Shown here in pieces: positions 2,506-38,787 of a stretch of DNA of 39,675 nucleotides; within the stretch, counting starts at the first letter, position 1; each line of letters starts with the position of its first letter. The stretch is from an uncultured Spirochaetales bacterium (GTDB lineage Bacteria; Spirochaetota; Spirochaetia; Sphaerochaetales; Sphaerochaetaceae). The notes under the pieces are model-generated. The model did no database searches. It was not told where the DNA came from and saw only the letters and a list, made by a program, of their open reading frames with translations. A program made the translations under genes and the position numbers. The stretch spans positions 1-39,675 of the forward strand of contig CALXXN010000016.1 of the NCBI GenBank assembly GCA_944392695.1. The letters run 5' to 3'.

Positions 2506-3344
2506 TGAATATCTATAAGACGAAGAAAGAGGTCTCGAAGCTGATGTTCTACATCCTCTTCGCCTGCCTTGCCATAGTCTTCCTTTCGCCCTTCATCGTC
2601 ATGTTGACGACCAGTTTCAAGACCTTGGATGATGCCTTCACCGTACCAGTGAAGATCCTGCCAAGGGACTGGATCTTCACCAACTATGGTGATGCTGTCG
2701 AGAGGATCCCATACTGGCGTTACATGGGTAATACCGCCTATATCACGCTCTTCTCCTTGATAGGAGAGCTCATCGTCGTCCCCTTGGTCGCCTATTCGCT
2801 TGCCAAGATCAAGTGGAAGGGAGCGGCCATCATCTCCGGACTTATCATGGCCACGATGATGATCCCATACACAGTTACGATGATCCCGCTCTACAGGACA
2901 TGGCATGCCCTTGGACTGACAGGGTCCTACGTGCCATTGATCGCCCCTCATTTCGCAGGACATGCCTTCTACATAATCATCATGAGGCAGTTCATGAAGG
3001 GCATCCCCAATTCGCTTTTCGAAGCGGCGAAGATTGACGGTGCGAACGAGTTCCAGCGTTTCATGTACCTGGGGATTCCGATGTGCAAGCCCGCGCTCAC
3101 AACCATCGCAATCTATACGTTCAACGCTGCATGGTCGGACTACCTGGCGCCTCTGATCTACATCTCGAACAAGGACAGGATGACACTCTCACTTGGCCTC
3201 CAGCAGTTCCTGAACGAATACACTGTCGACTGGACCCTGCTGATGGCTGCCGCAGTCATCTTCGTCCTGCCAGTCCTCGTCCTTTTCTTCATCTTCCAGC
3301 GCAATTTCGTGGAGGGTGTGGCTACAAGTGGGTTGAAGGCATAG
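2505..3344 (+). CDS. Sugar ABC transporter permease (MalG/UgpE family)
   Basis: This is the second permease, of 279 residues. A first membrane helix lies around residues 14-34 and ends in LSPFIVMLTTSFK, typical of the MalG group. The EAA loop is visible as LFEAAKIDGANEFQRF in the last third. The ATG at 2505 overlaps the preceding stop (TGATG) and has GGAGGTG just upstream, so it is preferred over the GTG at 2502. The protein ends with the family's usual FVEGVATSGLKA tail. It should form the membrane pore with the product of the previous gene for the amino-sugar importer. Confidence 0.92.
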   Translation: MNIYKTKKEVSKLMFYILFACLAIVFLSPFIVMLTTSFKTLDDAFTVPVKILPRDWIFTNYGDAVERIPYWRYMGNTAYITLFSLIGELIVVPLVAYSLAKIKWKGAAIISGLIMATMMIPYTVTMIPLYRTWHALGLTGSYVPLIAPHFAGHAFYIIIMRQFMKGIPNSLFEAAKIDGANEFQRFMYLGIPMCKPALTTIAIYTFNAAWSDYLAPLIYISNKDRMTLSLGLQQFLNEYTVDWTLLMAAAVIFVLPVLVLFFIFQRNFVEGVATSGLKA

Positions 3345-3348
3345 CAGT

Positions 3349-4896
3349 ATGGCGACATTGTTCAAGAATGCCACTGTACTTGATGGTACAGGGACAAGAC
3401 CTGCATTCAAATCCGACATCCTGGTCGATGGAGGCTTGATCAAGGACATCCGTCCTGGTCTGGAAGTTGATGGTGCAACTGTCATTGATGTGGCAGGGCG
3501 CTATATCTGCCCTGCATTCATCGATGCGCACAGGCATCTTGATGCTGAAGTACTGAGGAATCCTTGCTTTGGAACCATTGAGAAGGCCCAGGGGATAGCC
3601 ACTGCCTTCGGTGGCCTGTGTGGCATGTCATTGCCGTATGCGGACAGGGCCTGGGCGGATTACATCTCCCCCTGTCTTGGGCAGATTCCAGATTCCATGC
3701 TTGGCATGGATTTCAGAAGCTTCTACAAGAAGCTTGAATCAAAGGAACTCCCTCTTGACCTCGGTTTTTTCCTTGGAATGGGGTCTGTGACAAGCGCCAT
3801 CCAGGGTATGGCTGGTGTGAGGTGGGATGACCAGGCCTTGGCCAAGGCACAGGCCATGGTGCTGGAAGCCTTGGATGAAGGCGCTTTTGGAATCTCAATG
3901 GGTGTCATGTATGAACCAGAGCGCTTCAACAGCAAGGAGGATTACATACGTATCCTATCTGTCGCCAGACATGGCAGAAGACCCTTGGTCGTCCACCTGA
4001 GGAGCGAGGGGGACGGCTTGGTCGAAGCCATAGAAGAGGCCTGTTCGATTGCAGATGCGCTTTCCCTGCCATTGGTGATCAGCCACTTCAAGGTCTTTGG
4101 ACGTCAGAACTGGAACAGGACCATACATGCTGCGATAGCAAGAGTGGAGCAGTGGAGGTCACGTGGGTTGGATGTCTCCGTCGATTTCTATCCCTACGAT
4201 GCTGGCAGTACGACCATGTTGACCCTGATCCCGCCCTGTGTCCAGAAGGACAGCCTGGAAGCTACGATCAACTACCTTTCTTCTCATGGGGGAAGGATGG
4301 CTTTCAAAGAAGCGATAGTCCGCATGGACCATGGTGCCTGGGATAACATGGTCGCCTCAATAGGCTGGGACCGTGTCATCCTCTCATCTGGGCGTTCAAG
4401 CCTTGCCGCCTCTTATATCGGCATGGATATACAGTCAATCGCAGATAGTGTCGCTGAAGATCCCTGTGACATCTTCATCGACATACTGGAAGCAGAGGAA
4501 GGCCAGGCTGCCGTGATAGTACGCAGCATGGCTGCAGAGGATGTTGATGCTGTCGCGTCACTGGGCTACAGCGCACTCATCTCAGATTCTCTTTATGGGG
4601 GAGGAAGTCATCCTCATCCCAGGCTTTGTGGGACTTTCACCCACTTCCTTTCGGATTTTGTCTTCAAGCGCCACGTGTTGTCGCTGGAGGAGGCGGTCTG
4701 GAAGATGACAGGCCTGGTCTCAAGCCGTTATGGGCTTGGTGACAGGGGTGTGCTGGAAAAAGGGAAGAAGGCTGATCTTGTCATTTTTGACAGGGACAGC
4801 ATTGAAGACAGGACCTCATACGGAGAACCCACAGCGCTTCCCGCAGGGATCAATCTCCTATGTGGGGAAGGAAAACTACTACGACAGGGGAGTTGA
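3349..4896 (+). CDS. D-aminoacylase-like amidohydrolase (N-acyl-D-amino acid deacylase family)
   Basis: This is a metal-dependent amidohydrolase of 515 residues, in the family's usual range of about 480-530. The N-terminal strand region (LFKNATVLDGTG) is followed by the metal-binding HxH in FIDAHRHLD near residue 62. Further family motifs are VVHLRSEGDGLVEAIEEA, ISHFKVFG and VDFYPYDAG. Near the C-terminus are GGGSHPHPR and KADLVIFDRDSIEDR. Known relatives remove acyl groups from N-acyl-D-amino acids in the cytoplasm. Its place between the permeases and MurQ suggests work on the D-amino acid part of imported peptidoglycan fragments, but the substrate is inferred. The stop is one base before the murQ start. 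Dipeptidase or other amidohydrolase activity remains possible. Confidence 0.8.
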   Translation: MATLFKNATVLDGTGTRPAFKSDILVDGGLIKDIRPGLEVDGATVIDVAGRYICPAFIDAHRHLDAEVLRNPCFGTIEKAQGIATAFGGLCGMSLPYADRAWADYISPCLGQIPDSMLGMDFRSFYKKLESKELPLDLGFFLGMGSVTSAIQGMAGVRWDDQALAKAQAMVLEALDEGAFGISMGVMYEPERFNSKEDYIRILSVARHGRRPLVVHLRSEGDGLVEAIEEACSIADALSLPLVISHFKVFGRQNWNRTIHAAIARVEQWRSRGLDVSVDFYPYDAGSTTMLTLIPPCVQKDSLEATINYLSSHGGRMAFKEAIVRMDHGAWDNMVASIGWDRVILSSGRSSLAASYIGMDIQSIADSVAEDPCDIFIDILEAEEGQAAVIVRSMAAEDVDAVASLGYSALISDSLYGGGSHPHPRLCGTFTHFLSDFVFKRHVLSLEEAVWKMTGLVSSRYGLGDRGVLEKGKKADLVIFDRDSIEDRTSYGEPTALPAGINLLCGEGKLLRQGS

Positions 4897-31526: not shown

Positions 31527-32264
31527 ATGAAGACAGTAAAGATCAGGAAAAGCCCCTACATCACAATCAAGAGGATCCTGGATGTGATCGTCTCTGCGCT
31601 TGCACTTGTAATCCTCTCGCCCGTCTTCCTCATAGTGGCCATCTTGGTCCGCGTGAAGCTTGGAAGCCCCGTCATCTTCACCCAGAAGCGCCCTGGACTC
31701 GGAAATAAAATCGTGGATTACCACAAGTTCCGTTCCATGAGCAATGCAAAGGATGCTGATGGCAACCTGCTTCCAGACTCACAGCGTCTGACCCACTTCG
31801 GGAAGGTCCTCAGGTCCACATCATTGGATGAACTCCCCCAGCTCTGGGACATCTTCATTGGGCGTATGAGCCTGATTGGACCACGCCCTCATCTGGTGCG
31901 CGACATGCTTTTCTATACAGACGAGCAGCTCGAGCGCCAGTCTGTCATGCCCGGCCTGACAGGCTGGGCCCAGGTGAATGGCAGGAACTCCATCACCTGG
32001 GATGAGAAGCTCGCACTCGACTTGTACTATGTCGAACACATCAGCTTCGCATTCGATGTCAAGATCTTCTTCAAGACAATCGCCTATGTATTAAAGAGGG
32101 AAGGTATCAACGAAAGCGAAGCCTCAGACGAGAAGAAAGTCGAAACCCACGAGAACCTCGGTGAGATGCTCCTGCGCACAGGTCGCATCTCCCTGGACTT
32201 CTACAACAGCTGTCTTGCTGAAGAAGCCCTGATAACCAAGAGGGGGGGGGGTAAGCCTAACTGA
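31527..32264 (+). CDS. Initiating phosphoglycosyltransferase (PglC/WcaJ-type sugar transferase), copy 1
   Basis: This monotopic membrane enzyme of 245 residues moves a sugar phosphate from a UDP-sugar to undecaprenyl phosphate, starting the glycan on the inner membrane. A single hydrophobic segment lies at about residues 18-42 (VIVSALALVILSPVFLIVAIL). The core motifs are FTQKRPGLGNK, YHKFRSMS, LRSTSLDELPQLWDI, SLIGPRP, and PGLTGWAQVNGRN. The C-terminal tail of about 45 residues (after KREGIN) exceeds the PglC core and ends in a Gly run encoded by ten G residues. A near relative is encoded at 35501. No clear ribosome binding site precedes the ATG. Confidence 0.92.
   Translation: MKTVKIRKSPYITIKRILDVIVSALALVILSPVFLIVAILVRVKLGSPVIFTQKRPGLGNKIVDYHKFRSMSNAKDADGNLLPDSQRLTHFGKVLRSTSLDELPQLWDIFIGRMSLIGPRPHLVRDMLFYTDEQLERQSVMPGLTGWAQVNGRNSITWDEKLALDLYYVEHISFAFDVKIFFKTIAYVLKREGINESEASDEKKVETHENLGEMLLRTGRISLDFYNSCLAEEALITKRGGGKPN
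32242..32251 (+). repeat. Ten-G homopolymer tract in the phosphoglycosyltransferase gene
   Basis: Ten consecutive G residues encode part of the final residues RGGGKPN. With 9 Gs the frame would continue to a TAA at 32308-32310, inside the next gene. With 11 or 8 it would stop at once after the glycines. Slippage would thus change only the tail and the coupling to the downstream dehydratase gene. Confidence 0.9.
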
Positions 32265-32284: not shown

Positions 32285-34141
32285 ATGAAGAGGTGGCTTA
32301 TGCTGCATAAGCCACTTCCTAGGAAGGCAAAAGCCTTCATCCAGCTTGTTGTTGACTTGGTTGTCTTCTGCATCAGCTATTTACTGGCTTTTGTGATTGT
32401 AAGACCTGAAACCTATTGCATGGTTCTTGCAATTGCGTCAGCCACTGTCACTTTGGTTCTGTCCTATGTCTTCCACTATTATGCAGTGAAGATTGAGCTG
32501 GGGTCTGTAGAGCTTGTCGGACACCTCTTGAAGAGTGTTGCGATAACCTATGTCGCTGGTGCAATCATAGCCTTGGTAGTCGGAATGAGGGGTTATGTAC
32601 TCTTCTCATTTGTTTATCTTACTTATTTCTTTGTGCTTTCGCTAGGAACACGCTTTGTCTTCAGGATGGTACAGAGGAGGCACAAGGTTTGTGCGGTTGC
32701 GAAGAAGGGCTATCCGAAGGCAGTGATTTATGGTGCTGGTGACATTGGTACCATGCTTGCCCGTCAGTATTATGATGGAAAGCTCGAGTACGAAATCATC
32801 GGTTATGTCGATGATGATCCAAGTCTAAGGAAAACCGACATCTTCGGTCTTCCTGTGCTTGGCAATGTAGACAGCCTCTCAGCAATAATCCGCGACAATG
32901 AAGTCGCGACATTGATCATTGGTATCACCAACCTGTCAAAGGAAAACCTCTACAAGGCTGTCGATGCCGCCAAGGACAATGGAGCTGATGTCAAGATCAT
33001 TCCAACCCTCTATGAAATCCAGCAGGGTGCCAAGGAACTGGATCTCAGGAATCTTGATTATCCTGATCTGCTTGGTCGTCCTTTGATCAAGATAGACAAG
33101 GCACCTATCGAGGCAATGGTCCGTGACAAGGTCGTCCTTGTCACTGGAGCCTGTGGCTCCATTGGCAGTGAAATCTGCCGCCAGCTTGTTGGTTTTGGCG
33201 TGAAGCGTCTTGTCATGATAGACATAGATGAGTCAGGACTCCATGACCAAGGTCTCCGTCTGACAGGTTACAAGGAAGAAATCAACGACAGGATCATCCC
33301 TGTCCTCTGTGATATCAAGAATGCAAACAAGATCAGGCGTATCTTCGAACAGTACAAACCTGAGATTGTCTATCATGCTGCCGCTTACAAGCACGTCCCA
33401 ATGGGTGAGCGTGAGCCGGATGAAATCATAAAGACAAATGTCATGGGTTCCTACAACGTGCTTTCTGCTGCCAAGGAGAACGCAGTTTCCAAGGTTGTTG
33501 TGATTTCAACCGACAAGGCTGTCAACCCGACCAATGTCATGGGTGCGTCAAAACGCATGGTCGAGCTGGTCGCATCGATGCTCACCTCCAATGATACTGA
33601 AATCGTTGCGGTCCGCTTTGGTAACGTGCTTGGTTCCCGAGGCTCGATGCTCCCGCTCTTCATTGAGCAGATTCATGCAGGTGTGCCAATCACCGTCACC
33701 CATAAGGACATCATCCGGTATTTCATGGCGATTCCAGAAGCCGTGAGCCTTGTCCTCAAGGCTGGTGCCATGGCGAAGGGCGGTGAGGTAATGGTTCTTG
33801 ACATGGGGCAACCTGTCAAAATCTATGACTTCGCAGAACGCCTGATCAAGTACTATTGTGATGGACGTAGCAAGATAGTCGTCACAGGGCTCCGCCCTGG
33901 CGAGAAGCTCTATGAAGAGCTGCTCGCTAAAGAAGACACGACCATCCCAACAGATGACAAACTTGTCTTCAAGGCACGTCTTAACGACCACAAGCTTGAC
34001 CCAGATGAGTTCTCAGCCTTCCTCAAGGCAATCGACTCATACAGTGACCTCGCTCTTGAGGAAGAGCTCAAGCACTTCGTACCTGAGTTCTCATGGCAGC
34101 ACAGTAAGGTGCTGTTGAATGATACTTCAATAACCCAATAA
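32285..34141 (+). CDS. CapD/PglF-type UDP-N-acetylglucosamine 4,6-dehydratase (membrane-anchored)
   Basis: This protein of 618 residues has four N-terminal membrane helices (residues about 15-125). A first Rossmann-like domain follows (VIYGAGDIGTMLARQ near 150). The catalytic SDR domain then begins with VVLVTGACGSIGSEICRQL near residue 282. Typical motifs are YHAAAYKHVPMGE, STDKAVNPTNVMGASKRMVE and FGNVLGSRGSM. Such enzymes make UDP-4-keto-6-deoxy-GlcNAc, the first step to bacillosamine and related diamino sugars. The aminotransferase, acetyltransferases and phosphoglycosyltransferases next to it complete that route. The ATG at 32285 has only a weak ribosome binding site. ATG at 32300 is an alternative. 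Confidence 0.92.
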   Translation: MKRWLMLHKPLPRKAKAFIQLVVDLVVFCISYLLAFVIVRPETYCMVLAIASATVTLVLSYVFHYYAVKIELGSVELVGHLLKSVAITYVAGAIIALVVGMRGYVLFSFVYLTYFFVLSLGTRFVFRMVQRRHKVCAVAKKGYPKAVIYGAGDIGTMLARQYYDGKLEYEIIGYVDDDPSLRKTDIFGLPVLGNVDSLSAIIRDNEVATLIIGITNLSKENLYKAVDAAKDNGADVKIIPTLYEIQQGAKELDLRNLDYPDLLGRPLIKIDKAPIEAMVRDKVVLVTGACGSIGSEICRQLVGFGVKRLVMIDIDESGLHDQGLRLTGYKEEINDRIIPVLCDIKNANKIRRIFEQYKPEIVYHAAAYKHVPMGEREPDEIIKTNVMGSYNVLSAAKENAVSKVVVISTDKAVNPTNVMGASKRMVELVASMLTSNDTEIVAVRFGNVLGSRGSMLPLFIEQIHAGVPITVTHKDIIRYFMAIPEAVSLVLKAGAMAKGGEVMVLDMGQPVKIYDFAERLIKYYCDGRSKIVVTGLRPGEKLYEELLAKEDTTIPTDDKLVFKARLNDHKLDPDEFSAFLKAIDSYSDLALEEELKHFVPEFSWQHSKVLLNDTSITQ

Positions 34142-34229
34142 GACCATTAGCAAGGAGGTCGCCTTGGTAATGGTCTCAGGACTCTGACCAATGCCTCCTC
34201 CAAGCCCGTCAAGGATATGGAGAGACAAG

Positions 34230-35501
34230 ATGGCATTTGTTGATAGGAATGATATAAAGCGGTTTGAACACAAGGTCTGGCTCTCATCCCCTACAATGCA
34301 TGGAGAAGAGCTTGAGTACATCACCCAGGCTTACAAGAGCAACTGGATGAGTACAGTAGGGGAGAATATCAATGAAGTTGAACGTCTCCTCTCTGAGAAG
34401 ATTGGTGTAAAAGGTGCAGTCGCCCTTTCTGCTGGAACTGCGGCACTGCATCTTGCTGTCAAGCTTGCAGGTGTTAAACCAGGCGACAAAGTCTTCTGCT
34501 CAGACATGACATTCAGTGCCACAGTCAATCCAGTGACCTATGAAGGTGGTATTCCAATCTTCATTGACAGCGAGCGTGATACTTGGAACATGGATCCTGT
34601 CGCTCTGGAGAAGGCTTTCGAACTCTATCCAGATGTCAAGCTTGTCGTTGTAGCCCATCTTTATGGAACTCCAGGCAAGATTGATGAAATCCGGGAGATT
34701 TGCAAACAACATGGTGCAATCCTCATTGAGGATGCAGCAGAGTCCCTAGGAGCTACTTACAAAGGTAAGCAGACAGGTTCCTTTGGTGACTACAATGCAA
34801 TCTCATTCAACGGGAACAAAATCATCACAGGGTCCTCTGGAGGTATGTTGCTTAGTGATGACATCACTGCTATCAACCATGCCCGCAAGTGGTCGACCCA
34901 GTCCAGGGAGGATGCTCCTTGGTATCAGCATGAGGAGATTGGCTACAACTACCGCATGAGCAATGTCATTGCCGGTGTTGTGCGTGGTCAGATTCCTCAT
35001 CTTGATGAGCATCTCGAACAGAAGAAAAGAATCTACTTCCGTTACAGGGAAGGCCTGAAAGACCTTCCTGTGACAATGAACCCATACGATGAAGTCAATA
35101 GTTCGCCAAACTTCTGGCTTTCATGTCTTCTGATTGATCTCTCAGCAATGTGCCGCCAGGCACGTAGTGACAACGAAGCTGTATACATCAAGGAGGAGGG
35201 GAAGAGCTGCCCAACAGAAATCCTTGAAACAATTGCCTCGTTCAATGCAGAAGGTCGTCCAATCTGGAAGCCCATGCATATGCAACCAATCTTCAGGATG
35301 AATCCCTTCGTAACACGCGAGGGCAATGGAAGAAGCCGCACCAATGCCTACATCTCTGGAGGCCGGCTTGGTTCTGATGGCCTTCCATTGGATGTCGGTG
35401 CAGATATCTTCCAGCGTGGACTCTGCCTTCCTTCTGACAACAAGATGACAGAAGAAGAACAGGATGTAGTGATTGAAATCATCAGAAGGTGTTTTGAGTG
35501 A
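34230..35501 (+). CDS. DegT/DnrJ/EryC1-family sugar aminotransferase (PglE-like)
   Basis: This PLP-dependent enzyme of 423 residues has the substrate-binding SAGTAALHLAVKLAG near residue 70. EDAAESLGATYKGKQTGSFGDY near residues 170-191 leads to the PLP lysine in SFNGNKIITGSSGG near 196. GYNYRMSNVIAGVVRGQ near 240 is also typical. It should transfer an amino group from glutamate to the 4-keto sugar made by the preceding dehydratase. The ATG at 34230 follows GGAGAG. The longer frame from 34191 has no better signal. It lies 88 bases after the dehydratase gene, and its stop overlaps the next start (TGATG). Confidence 0.92.
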   Translation: MAFVDRNDIKRFEHKVWLSSPTMHGEELEYITQAYKSNWMSTVGENINEVERLLSEKIGVKGAVALSAGTAALHLAVKLAGVKPGDKVFCSDMTFSATVNPVTYEGGIPIFIDSERDTWNMDPVALEKAFELYPDVKLVVVAHLYGTPGKIDEIREICKQHGAILIEDAAESLGATYKGKQTGSFGDYNAISFNGNKIITGSSGGMLLSDDITAINHARKWSTQSREDAPWYQHEEIGYNYRMSNVIAGVVRGQIPHLDEHLEQKKRIYFRYREGLKDLPVTMNPYDEVNSSPNFWLSCLLIDLSAMCRQARSDNEAVYIKEEGKSCPTEILETIASFNAEGRPIWKPMHMQPIFRMNPFVTREGNGRSRTNAYISGGRLGSDGLPLDVGADIFQRGLCLPSDNKMTEEEQDVVIEIIRRCFE

Positions 35502-36130
35502 TGGCACATCATAAAGGCTTTTACGAGCGCTTCATCAAGAGGCCTCAGGACTTCTTGTGTGCTCTCTTGGCACTTATAGTGCTATCACCTATTTTCCTTG
35601 TAGTTGCCATACTTGTGCACAAGAAGCTTGGGTCTCCTGTCATCTTCCGACAGGAGCGACCTGGTCTCAATGGCAAGATATTCACACTCTATAAGTTCCG
35701 ATCTATGTCGGATGCAAGGGATGCGAATGGTGAGTTGCTTCCAGATGAGGTCAGGTTGACACACTTCGGAAAGATGCTCCGTTCAACATCCCTTGACGAG
35801 CTCCCCGAGCTCATCAATATCCTCAAAGGTGACATGGCTGTTGTTGGACCTAGACCTCTCCGTGTTGACTACCTGCCTTTGTATAACAAGACACAGGCAA
35901 GACGACATGAGGTCCGCCCTGGTTTCACAGGATATGCCCAGGTACATGGACGCAACTCCATCACTTGGGAAGATAAGTTTGAAAAGGATGTATACTACGT
36001 TGACAGGGTATCTTTCTTGATGGATTGGAAAATCATCTTCCAGACTGTCAAAGTAGTCTTGAGGCGTGATGGAATTTCCTCTGAGTCTTCTGTGACAATG
36101 GAGCCATTCAAGGGAACTCCTGAGATGTAA
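35501..36130 (+). CDS. Initiating phosphoglycosyltransferase (PglC-type sugar transferase), copy 2
   Basis: This protein of 209 residues has the same motif series as the copy at 31527. These are one membrane segment at about residues 15-40, FRQERPGLNGK, LYKFRSMSDARDANGELLPD, LRSTSLDELPELINIL, VVGPRP, and PGFTGYAQVHGRN. It lacks the long C-terminal tail of copy 1 and is close to the 200-residue PglC core. Two initiating transferases in one locus suggest two lipid-linked sugars, or an exchange of the first sugar. The ATG at 35501 overlaps the aminotransferase stop. The next gene starts 5 bases after this stop. Confidence 0.91.
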   Translation: MAHHKGFYERFIKRPQDFLCALLALIVLSPIFLVVAILVHKKLGSPVIFRQERPGLNGKIFTLYKFRSMSDARDANGELLPDEVRLTHFGKMLRSTSLDELPELINILKGDMAVVGPRPLRVDYLPLYNKTQARRHEVRPGFTGYAQVHGRNSITWEDKFEKDVYYVDRVSFLMDWKIIFQTVKVVLRRDGISSESSVTMEPFKGTPEM

Positions 36131-36134
36131 GTGT

Positions 36135-36779
36135 ATGAAGACAACTCGTTTATGTATCCTCGGCGCAGGAGGGCATGGCAAAGTCATACTAGAGATTGCT
36201 GAGTTATCGGGATGTTATGATGAGATTGTCTTCTTTGATGATGATTCCAGAGTTAGGCACTGCGGGAGTGCTCCTGTTGTAGGTACTAGCGCGGATTTCT
36301 TCAATCTCAGAGAAGATGAATGTGATTTCTTTATAGCCATAGGCAACTGCTCATTGAGGGCTAAGTTGACTAACATGCTTGGCAATGTGCACATGCCTTC
36401 TTTAGTACATCCTGCTGCTGTTGTGTCGAAGACTGCGGAAATCGGTAGAGGTACCGTTGTCATGGCAGGAGCTATAATCAATCCTTCGGCAAGAATTGAT
36501 GATGGCTGTATCATCAATTCAAATGCGGTGGTAGAGCATGACTGTGAGGTAGGCGACTTCTCCCATATATCAGTCTCTGCAAGTCTTGCTGGTTCTGTCC
36601 ATGTTGGAGAAACTTGTTTTGTAGGAGCTGGAGCAACAGTGATAAACAATATCAACATATGTCCAGGATGTACCATTGGTGCAGGTGCCGTGGTTGTGAA
36701 AGACATTGTAGAGAGTGGTGTCTATATTGGAGTTCCTGCAGCACTATTGGAAAAGCCGTTGGGGGGGGGGTATAAATAG
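36135..36779 (+). CDS. PglD/NeuD-type sugar O/N-acyltransferase, copy 1
   Basis: This protein of 214 residues has an N-terminal Rossmann-like domain (LCILGAGGHGKVILEIAELSG) followed by a left-handed beta-helix of hexapeptide repeats from about residue 85. The catalytic histidine is probably in NAVVEHDCEVGDFSHIS. The end motif GVYIGVPAALLEKP is typical of the family. It should acetylate the 4-amino group made by the DegT aminotransferase, as PglD does for UDP-diacetylbacillosamine. The last residues GGGYK are encoded by a ten-G tract. A paralogue follows 42 bases later. Confidence 0.92.
   Translation: MKTTRLCILGAGGHGKVILEIAELSGCYDEIVFFDDDSRVRHCGSAPVVGTSADFFNLREDECDFFIAIGNCSLRAKLTNMLGNVHMPSLVHPAAVVSKTAEIGRGTVVMAGAIINPSARIDDGCIINSNAVVEHDCEVGDFSHISVSASLAGSVHVGETCFVGAGATVINNINICPGCTIGAGAVVVKDIVESGVYIGVPAALLEKPLGGGYK
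36761..36770 (+). repeat. Ten-G homopolymer tract at the end of the PglD-like gene
   Basis: Ten consecutive G residues lie 9 bases before the stop codon. With one G fewer the frame would run on to a TGA overlapping the ATG of the next gene at 36822 (TATGA). That would couple the two acetyltransferase genes translationally. This is the second such tract in the cluster. Confidence 0.9.
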
Positions 36780-36821
36780 TTTTTACATATTGCCAATCCA
36801 ACATTATATGGGGGAGGCAGT

Positions 36822-37469
36822 ATGAAGAATCTTTATATAGTCGGTGCAGGAGGACTTGGTCGTCAAATCGCTTGGATAGTCGAGCGTATCAATGAGAAGG
36901 ACTCTTCTTGGAATCTTGCAGGTTTTATTGATGATGACAATGCCCTTAAAGGTAAGATCATCAATGGTATTCCAGTAGTTGGCGGGATTGATATGCTGGG
37001 CCAGCTCGAAGGACCAATCTGGTTAGTGACTGCCTTTGGCTCAGTCAAGACACGCAAGACTGTTGTTGATAGGATTTGTTCCTTGCGAAGGGATGACATC
37101 CATTTTGCAACATTGATTGATCCAAGTGTGATGATTTCAAAATGGGCTGAAATTGGAGAAGGTTCTGTCATATGTGCGGGTTCCATTGTGACAGTCAACA
37201 TCACTATAGGGAAACATGTTTTGATTAACTGGGATTGTACAGTAGGGCATGACTCTATTATTGATGATTTCTGTACGATTTCACCTAGTGCAAATATCTG
37301 TGGAAATGTACATCTTGGACAATTTGTTGATATTGGAGTTGGTGCACAAGTTATCCAAGGGCGTAGTATTGTCTCAAATTCTACGGTAGGCGCAGGCGCT
37401 GTGGTTGTAAGAAATATTACTGAAAGTGGTGTTTATATTGGGGTACCTGCTAAACAGTTGAAAAGTTAA
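36822..37469 (+). CDS. PglD/NeuD-type sugar acyltransferase, copy 2
   Basis: This protein of 215 residues has the same layout as the preceding one. It starts YIVGAGGLGRQIAWIVERIN, has hexapeptide repeats from about residue 100 with the catalytic segment NWDCTVGHDSIIDDF, and ends ESGVYIGVPAKQL. GGGGGAGG precedes the ATG. The sequence is visibly richer in A/T than the genes before it, a trait shared with the following glycosyltransferase. Two such enzymes could put different acyl groups on one sugar or act on two sugars. Confidence 0.9.
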   Translation: MKNLYIVGAGGLGRQIAWIVERINEKDSSWNLAGFIDDDNALKGKIINGIPVVGGIDMLGQLEGPIWLVTAFGSVKTRKTVVDRICSLRRDDIHFATLIDPSVMISKWAEIGEGSVICAGSIVTVNITIGKHVLINWDCTVGHDSIIDDFCTISPSANICGNVHLGQFVDIGVGAQVIQGRSIVSNSTVGAGAVVVRNITESGVYIGVPAKQLKS

Positions 37470-37527: not shown

Positions 37528-38787
37528 ATGAATATTTGGATAATTAAAGAAAGTGAGTTTGTGAACTTGCTAACAGGTAAGTCGAGAGCTTCCCGTGCAG
37601 CCATGCTTGCAGATTATTTCATCGAAACAGGTTGTAATGTCATCGCATGGAGTAGCCTGTGGGAACATGGTTCAAAGAAATATATAAATGTAGATAGCTA
37701 TGTCATAAAATTGAAGCCAAGTCTTACATTGAACGTTCTCAATACGCAAAAGACATATAAGAAAAATATATCGCTGCGCAGAATAGTCCAAGGACGGGAA
37801 ATAGGACGCCTTTTCCGTGATGAAGCGAAGAAAATGCCAAAGCCTGACCTGATTTATTCTTGTTGGCCGCTTATTGAGACTTCATATGAAGCTGTGAAAT
37901 ATGGACAGGAGAATGGAATCCCTGTTGTTATTGACATTCGGGATTTGTGGCCTGACATATTCGTCCAGCCATTTCCTAGATTTCTGCAGCCGTTGGCTAG
38001 GTTAGGAATAAACTTCGTTTACAAGAAAAAAGTATGCTATGCATTGAAAAATGCAACAATGGTTACTGGTACAATACCAAAGGCCATGGAGCTTCCTCCC
38101 AAGTATGGAAGGCAAATGAAGGCGCTTGATCATCATGTCTTCCATTGCTATAAGAATCCATCTTTTACAGAGTCTGAGATTTCATTAGCTGTTGCAGAAT
38201 GGGATTCATTGGGTATCGACGATTCTAGCTTCAATATTGTTTTCTTTGGTTCCACGAATAAGCGCATCTGCGAATTGGAAATGATGATGGAGGCTGCAAA
38301 AAAGCTTGAGAACTGCAATGTGAAATTCATTGTTTGTGGTCGTGGCGTAAATTATGATGAATTAGTAGAGAAATCCAAATCATATCCCAATTTCATTATG
38401 GCGGGACTTAAGAACCAGCTTCAGTTGGTCGCTCTCGCATCTATTTCCAAAGTCGGCATCATACCATATCGGAACACCAGTGATTTTACGGATTCGCTCC
38501 CAACTAAGTTTAGTGAGTATCTTGCAAACTCTTTGATTGTCTTCACAAGCCTTCGTGGCCTTTCAAAAACAGTGATTGAAGAAAACCAGTGTGGATTTGC
38601 CTATGAGGAAGGTAGTGTGGATTCATTGGTATCCGCAGCAGAGAGGTATCTTAAAGATGCCTCTCTGGTGGAAAAACAAAAAAATAATGCAAGGCTTCTG
38701 TATGAAAAAGCATTCAATGCTGATGTTGTATACAGGGACTTTGTCTCACAATTGATAAAACTAGCTGATGGGTATAATCATCAGTGA
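37528..38787 (+). CDS. GT4-family glycosyltransferase
   Basis: This protein of 419 residues has a GT-B fold. The C-terminal nucleotide-sugar domain shows NIVFFGSTNKRICELEMM near residue 233 and VKFIVCGRGVNYDELV near 268. GIIPYRNTSDFTDSLPTKFSEYLA near 310 ends in the family's acidic motif region, then CGFAYEEGSVDSLVSA. It should add a sugar to the lipid-linked glycan at the cytoplasmic face. AAGGTGACAAT precedes the ATG. It is markedly A/T-rich compared with the catabolic operons, suggesting recent acquisition. Donor and linkage cannot be told from the sequence. Confidence 0.87.
   Translation: MNIWIIKESEFVNLLTGKSRASRAAMLADYFIETGCNVIAWSSLWEHGSKKYINVDSYVIKLKPSLTLNVLNTQKTYKKNISLRRIVQGREIGRLFRDEAKKMPKPDLIYSCWPLIETSYEAVKYGQENGIPVVIDIRDLWPDIFVQPFPRFLQPLARLGINFVYKKKVCYALKNATMVTGTIPKAMELPPKYGRQMKALDHHVFHCYKNPSFTESEISLAVAEWDSLGIDDSSFNIVFFGSTNKRICELEMMMEAAKKLENCNVKFIVCGRGVNYDELVEKSKSYPNFIMAGLKNQLQLVALASISKVGIIPYRNTSDFTDSLPTKFSEYLANSLIVFTSLRGLSKTVIEENQCGFAYEEGSVDSLVSAAERYLKDASLVEKQKNNARLLYEKAFNADVVYRDFVSQLIKLADGYNHQ

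Follow-up and report, generated by a model that had tools for sequence, protein, structure and literature searches.

A ten-G tract that may gate translation of a neighboring acetyltransferase gene in a spirochete glycan cluster

Results

A run of ten Gs close to the 3' end of a PglD-type gene, in a glycan cluster of an uncultured Spirochaetales bacterium, is probably a contingency locus, judging from its sequence context. The reading that we favor, tentatively and at a little under even confidence, is that slippage in this tract would switch translational coupling to the VioB-type acetyltransferase gene downstream. Of the reading frames that the tract can open, only the one entered at 9 or 12 Gs crosses a predicted RNA hairpin over the ribosome binding site of the second gene, and it stops on the start codon of that gene. 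The window that we analyzed is an entire contig (C16; 39,675 nucleotides) of an assembly of 2.31 Mb in 39 contigs.

The glycan cluster

The genes relevant here are the following:

31527..32264, + strand: phosphoglycosyltransferase (Bac_transf), 245 aa, bearing the sister tract; PF02397, E 2e-60
32285..34141, + strand: PglF-type nucleotide-sugar 4,6-dehydratase, start at 32285 or 32300; Polysacc_synt_2, E 2e-107, plus CoA_binding_3
34191..35501, + strand: LegC/PglE-type aminotransferase; DegT_DnrJ_EryC1, E 4e-78; best NCBIfam match TIGR04181, under its cut-off
35498..36130, + strand: PglC-type phosphoglycosyltransferase; PF02397, E 1e-61
36135..36779, + strand: PglD/PglB-type UDP-4-amino-sugar N-acetyltransferase, 214 aa; TIGR03570, 232.7 bits; PglD_N and Hexapep
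36822..37469, + strand: VioB-type sugar acetyltransferase, 215 aa, the proposed target of the switch; TIGR03570, 206.3 bits; VioB 7txp, E 3e-40
37528..38787, + strand: glycosyltransferase of the same cluster; Glycos_transf_1, E 1e-13

Both acetyltransferases exceed the curated cut-off of TIGR03570 (NeuD/PglD sugar acetyltransferases; 160.8 bits). The first-pass annotation had described them as paralogues, but rather than simple paralogues they are members of different subfamilies, one PglD-type and the other VioB-type. Matches of the first protein include Neisseria 4m98 (E 4e-40) and Campylobacter PglD (2vhe/3bss). The two genes come after PglF-, PglE- and PglC-type genes, an order that is retained in distant clusters, and the pair of VioB-type and PglD-type genes was also found in two Eubacterium clusters (L029 and L031). 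No RNA family of Rfam was matched in the cluster. A 15-nt inverted repeat (93%) lies at 34141-34176, right after the pglF stop codon and before the aminotransferase gene, and is possibly an attenuator or a processing site.

Reading frames opened by the tract

36761..36770, + strand: ten-G tract, residues ~209-212 of the PglD-like protein, past its conserved end
36823..36825, + strand: UGA closing the 9-G and 12-G frames, overlapping the AUG at 36822-36824 as ATGA

The PglD-type ORF ends in ...EKPLGGGYK*, with its stop codon at 36777-36779 and the ten Gs within its last codons. We recomputed the frames for other tract lengths. With 7, 10 or 13 Gs the tail reads GG(G)YK and the stop is at 36779, which at 10 Gs leaves 42 nt before the ATG of the next gene at 36822; with 8 or 11 Gs the frame stops at 36775, 46 nt ahead of that gene. 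With 9 or 12 Gs, INSFYILPIQHYMGEAV is appended before the frame stops at the TGA that overlaps the ATG. This bears out what had been claimed of the tract, of the 42-nt distance at 10 Gs and of the overlap at 9 Gs. Depending on tract length, the first enzyme would thus end in GGGYK, in GGV or in a 20-residue extension.

None of these tails should disable the PglD-type enzyme. Its conserved domain match ends at residue ~206, ahead of the tract, and homologous PglDs terminate 3-8 residues past GVPA, which places the tract in an added tail. Because the homologues end before the tract, the enzyme should work at every tract length, in agreement with the earlier proposal that it is not lost when one G is dropped. 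This is the layout described as C-terminal phase variation, in which a CDS that is complete in other respects has a homopolymer of at least 8 close to its 3' end. No orthologous site for the tract was found in the genus, where the relatives have no pglD-vioB junction. A hexapeptide acetyltransferase of another genome of the genus (G012, L112:5116-5589) carries a ten-G tract that truncates its usual VVGG.PAK end, which would be restored at 9 Gs; from its frames, it is a clear candidate for a phase-variable sugar acetyltransferase.

A predicted hairpin over the start of the second gene

36770..36838, + strand: predicted RNA hairpin that fills the gap from tract to gene and masks the Shine-Dalgarno sequence and AUG of the VioB-type gene; minimum free energy -23.0 kcal/mol
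36810..36817, + strand: Shine-Dalgarno sequence GGGGGAGG of the second gene, within the hairpin; mean unpaired probability 0.27

All folds were predicted for the RNA in isolation. A neighboring 120-nt stretch folds with a z score of -3.1, and 1 of 200 shuffles was as stable; over its own extent (36770-36838) the hairpin reaches z -5.7, a value for limits chosen after seeing the sequence. The AUG at 36822 has an unpaired probability of ~0.00; among 336 gene starts, it falls in the 2.4% with the lowest accessibility. The predicted masking is retained if a ribosome is placed at the 8-, 10- or 11-G stop and only the RNA downstream of it is folded, and the hairpin is crossed by ribosomes in the 9/12-G frame alone. 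We also considered that tract length might alter the hairpin itself and rejected this, as the accessibility of the Shine-Dalgarno sequence and AUG is equal for 7-13 Gs.

RNA-unfolding coupling calls for a stop codon overlapping or near the start codon, which is found at 9 and 12 Gs only, and for a ribosome binding site hidden in a structure that ribosomes arriving from the upstream gene would melt, which is what the in silico folds predict. The stop/start arithmetic alone is cheap. When frames are entered 51 nt ahead of each of 336 gene starts, 69 starts (20.5%) have at least one frame whose stop codon overlaps them, so the overlap carries little weight by itself. The first-pass annotation had treated the overlap as a classic coupling arrangement. 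Unless the hairpin is taken into account, coupling is not obvious from it, since the downstream gene has a strong Shine-Dalgarno sequence of its own. The proposal of coupling at 9 Gs is therefore upheld in part: the geometry is right, the predicted hairpin masks the start and the sister tract has the same layout, but the overlap is a common feature.

The sister tract and the pglF start

32242..32251, + strand: sister tract of ten Gs, encoding part of the C-terminal tail of the first phosphoglycosyltransferase (ORF 31527-32264)
32290..32318, + strand: perfect 13-bp hairpin (inverted repeat I6) over the candidate pglF start ATG at 32300, with Shine-Dalgarno sequence AAGAGGTGG; -18.2 kcal/mol

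At 10 Gs the host ORF of the sister tract stops at 32264 and at 8 or 11 Gs at 32254, whereas at 9 or 12 Gs the frame extends to a TAA at 32308-32310, inside the pglF start region. As at the 36761 tract, the hairpin is crossed by the 9/12-G frame only; its region has a z score of -2.8 against shuffles. There are two in-frame candidate starts of pglF, of which 32285 is open and 32300 is masked. Six of the 336 gene starts (1.8%) have both a masked AUG and a frame stopping there, and both tract junctions are among these if pglF starts at 32300, a start that was picked after inspection of the sequence. The predicted masked start with a stopping frame at both junctions is the strongest point in our case, weakened by this free choice of the pglF start.

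G runs across the genome

Maximal G runs in the genome number six of length 7, two of length 8, five of length 9, five of length 10 and one of length 13. Runs of 6-8 are depleted, yet there are 11 runs of at least 9, and runs of 9-10 are as frequent as those of 7. The distribution dips and then rises to a second hump, which sets G runs of at least 9 apart as a length class of their own. It had been argued that chance was unlikely to produce the two tracts of the cluster. In favor of this, as many G8 matches were obtained in 2 of 100 dinucleotide shuffles of the window; against it, a first-order Markov chain predicts ~4 runs of at least 10 genome-wide, and 6 are observed. Because these two figures are so close, we do not argue from an excess over simple composition, but from bimodality and location.

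As for location, a glycan-type cluster on C2 of the same genome (L076:9879-11340, 3220-4455) contains two G9 tracts, one splitting an ORF that 8 Gs would join to 486 aa and the other at the start of an acyltransferase gene (Acyl_transf_3, PF01757). Another tract lies inside a GT4 glycosyltransferase, and several precede genes for predicted lipoproteins or surface proteins. From their positions, this set of tracts at surface and glycan genes looks like a set of contingency loci. Two MutS-type matches are present in the genome, and to that extent we rejected loss of mismatch repair as the origin of the set.

Several further observations concern other tracts. On C4 of the same genome (L078:3984, 5365), adjacent paralogous lipoprotein genes share the same upstream sequence and carry tracts of 10 and 8 Gs, a divergence in length. 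A module of TTGACA, a short gap, nine or ten Gs and TA stands upstream of lipoprotein genes at L181:3530 and 4745, L183:3450, L162 and, in the same genome, L077:4073-4085; it is apparently a widespread phase-variable promoter design in the class. In the relative G001 (L165, L167, L168, L169), contig ends carry an identical sequence of 74-77 bp that is followed, after exactly 4 nt, by a G9 tract in four of the seven cases in which such tracts occur; sites without the interruption exist in G013. By its placement, the 74-77 bp sequence resembles the end of a mobile element whose insertions keep a constant spacing to G tracts.

Discussion

We suggest that the 36761 tract would work as follows. At 8, 10 or 11 Gs, translation of the PglD-type gene would end 42-46 nt short of the next gene and the hairpin would keep the VioB-type enzyme poorly translated. 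At 9 Gs, ribosomes would unfold the hairpin and terminate on the AUG, freeing it or restarting there. More of the second enzyme would then alter the N-acyl pattern of the 4-amino sugar made by the PglF/E/C/D-like cluster, and the sister tract would act likewise on pglF. The assembled state, with 10 Gs at both sites, would be the low-coupling state. RNA-unfolding coupling with an NTGA overlap is an established mechanism (PMC12548453). Since coupling may hold across +25 to +52 nt in some systems (PMC12548453), 10 Gs need not be an off state; moreover, the strong Shine-Dalgarno sequence of the second gene could work unaided, which would count against a coupling switch. The only other tract at a gene's 3' end in the genus (L134, in relative G003) likewise alters how stop and start codons are placed ahead of a MATE-like transporter gene, yet the start of this downstream gene is open, and we rejected it as an extension of the hairpin pattern.

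The main rival concerns transcription, and related genomes give reason to take it seriously; the first-pass annotation left it out, though such genomes use G tracts in this way. It holds that the tract is the spacer between the -35 and -10 boxes of an internal promoter for the second gene, with 9 Gs giving the optimal 17-nt spacer. The element in question is:

36747..36776, + strand: promoter-like element, TTGGAA (36747-36752), 18 nt including the ten Gs, TATAAA (36771-36776); 9 of 12 consensus matches

With a generic score and a single test against random flanks, a match of 9 of 12 has P 0.005, but the element went unlisted in a promoter scan at default settings, the TTGACA hexamer is absent and the fit to the promoter module of the genus has just P 0.04. 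The module itself is well represented: across 16 genomes of the genus, TA directly follows 55 of 98 tracts (background 5%) and a TTGACA-like box lies 6-8 nt upstream of 18 (~2 expected), and a search of 297 genomes of the class found TTGACA-N4-12-G8+-TA in 44, mostly 30-45 nt upstream of a start, with no match in the reversed control. T. pallidum tp0126 likewise has a poly-G of the promoter-spacer kind (PMC7864442). However, of 13 tracts lying inside genes in the genus, 5 have TA after them as well, so that TA alone is weak evidence and a promoter role leaves these tracts unexplained. The sister tract scores 6 of 12 (P 0.38), and a transcript from ~36783 is predicted to still hold the Shine-Dalgarno sequence and AUG in the inner stem. 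We consider the promoter explanation unlikely. Like coupling, it predicts that 9 Gs raise the output of the second enzyme; the two models part at 12 Gs and over the dependence on upstream translation.

Three further explanations were considered. If the tract only altered the tail of the first enzyme, it would match the class described in Helicobacter canadensis and the gonococcus (PMC2823697, PMC5320596), and every tail does follow a complete domain; yet the homologues lack the tail, which leaves an independent role for it unsupported, and the hairpin masking the ribosome binding site is left unexplained. We regard this as improbable. We give no more credence to a neutral or transient run, in which slippage produced ten Gs in a tail free of constraint, with the hairpin and the overlap there by coincidence. 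Such a run would agree with the missing orthologous site, the Markov expectation and the ease of the overlap, but not with the depletion of runs of 6-8 beside 11 runs of at least 9, most of them at surface genes, nor with two tracts of equal length and the same layout in one operon, where the combined features occur at so few gene starts. Finally, heterogeneity could arise in the RNA with the DNA unchanged, through polymerase slippage on the ten Gs or an sRNA binding the G run and setting the output of the second gene. The RepG sRNA, which acts on tlpB at a variable G repeat, is a precedent (PMC8295292), but the tract lies in a coding end rather than in a 5' leader and the cluster has no Rfam family, and we hold this to be very improbable.

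Tract-gated coupling thus remains our preferred reading. A broader claim, possible although we are rather doubtful of it, is that the two gene-end homopolymers of this glycan operon are mutable couplers, in which tract length decides whether the hairpin over the ribosome binding site is unfolded, so that the dose of the neighbor changes reversibly and the host gene stays on. Phase variation is usually catalogued as promoter-spacer or on/off frameshift variation, and 3'-end tracts are set aside or taken as tail variation. If the claim is true, the bacterium could alter the acylation of its surface sugars with synthesis left intact, and many dismissed 3'-end tracts would need to be read again alongside their downstream genes.

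Comparison with known systems

The cluster resembles the PglF/PglE/PglC/PglD pathway of Campylobacter and Neisseria pgl, with VioB added, in gene content, order and enzyme families; it differs in having two acetyltransferases that belong to separate subfamilies. In Treponema pallidum, poly-G promoters (tp0126, tprL; PMC7864442) have tracts of 8-10 Gs whose length sets expression, and related modules were found here at class level, whereas at the 36761 tract the -35 box is weak and the Gs lie within a coding end. With RNA-unfolding coupling as reviewed (PMC12548453), our case shares a hairpin around the downstream ribosome binding site and a stop/start overlap of -4 nt; here a mutable tract would decide whether coupling takes place, and phase variation, frameshift and homopolymer do not appear in the text of that review. 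A mechanism joining phase variation to translational coupling, with a tract gating its neighbor, was not found in the open-access papers that were searched. Both components are known, and what is new here is the predicted hairpin that masks the Shine-Dalgarno sequence and AUG of the second gene and is crossed by the 9-G frame. There is also a likeness to the tracts of H. canadensis and Neisseria gonorrhoeae, where a complete CDS has poly-G close to its 3' end that gives different short tails in three frames and sometimes a fusion to the next gene (C-terminal phase variation; PMC2823697, PMC5320596). In those species the effect considered is the tail or the fusion, whereas here one frame ends on the start of the neighbor within a hairpin predicted to mask its ribosome binding site, and the effect would fall on the neighbor.
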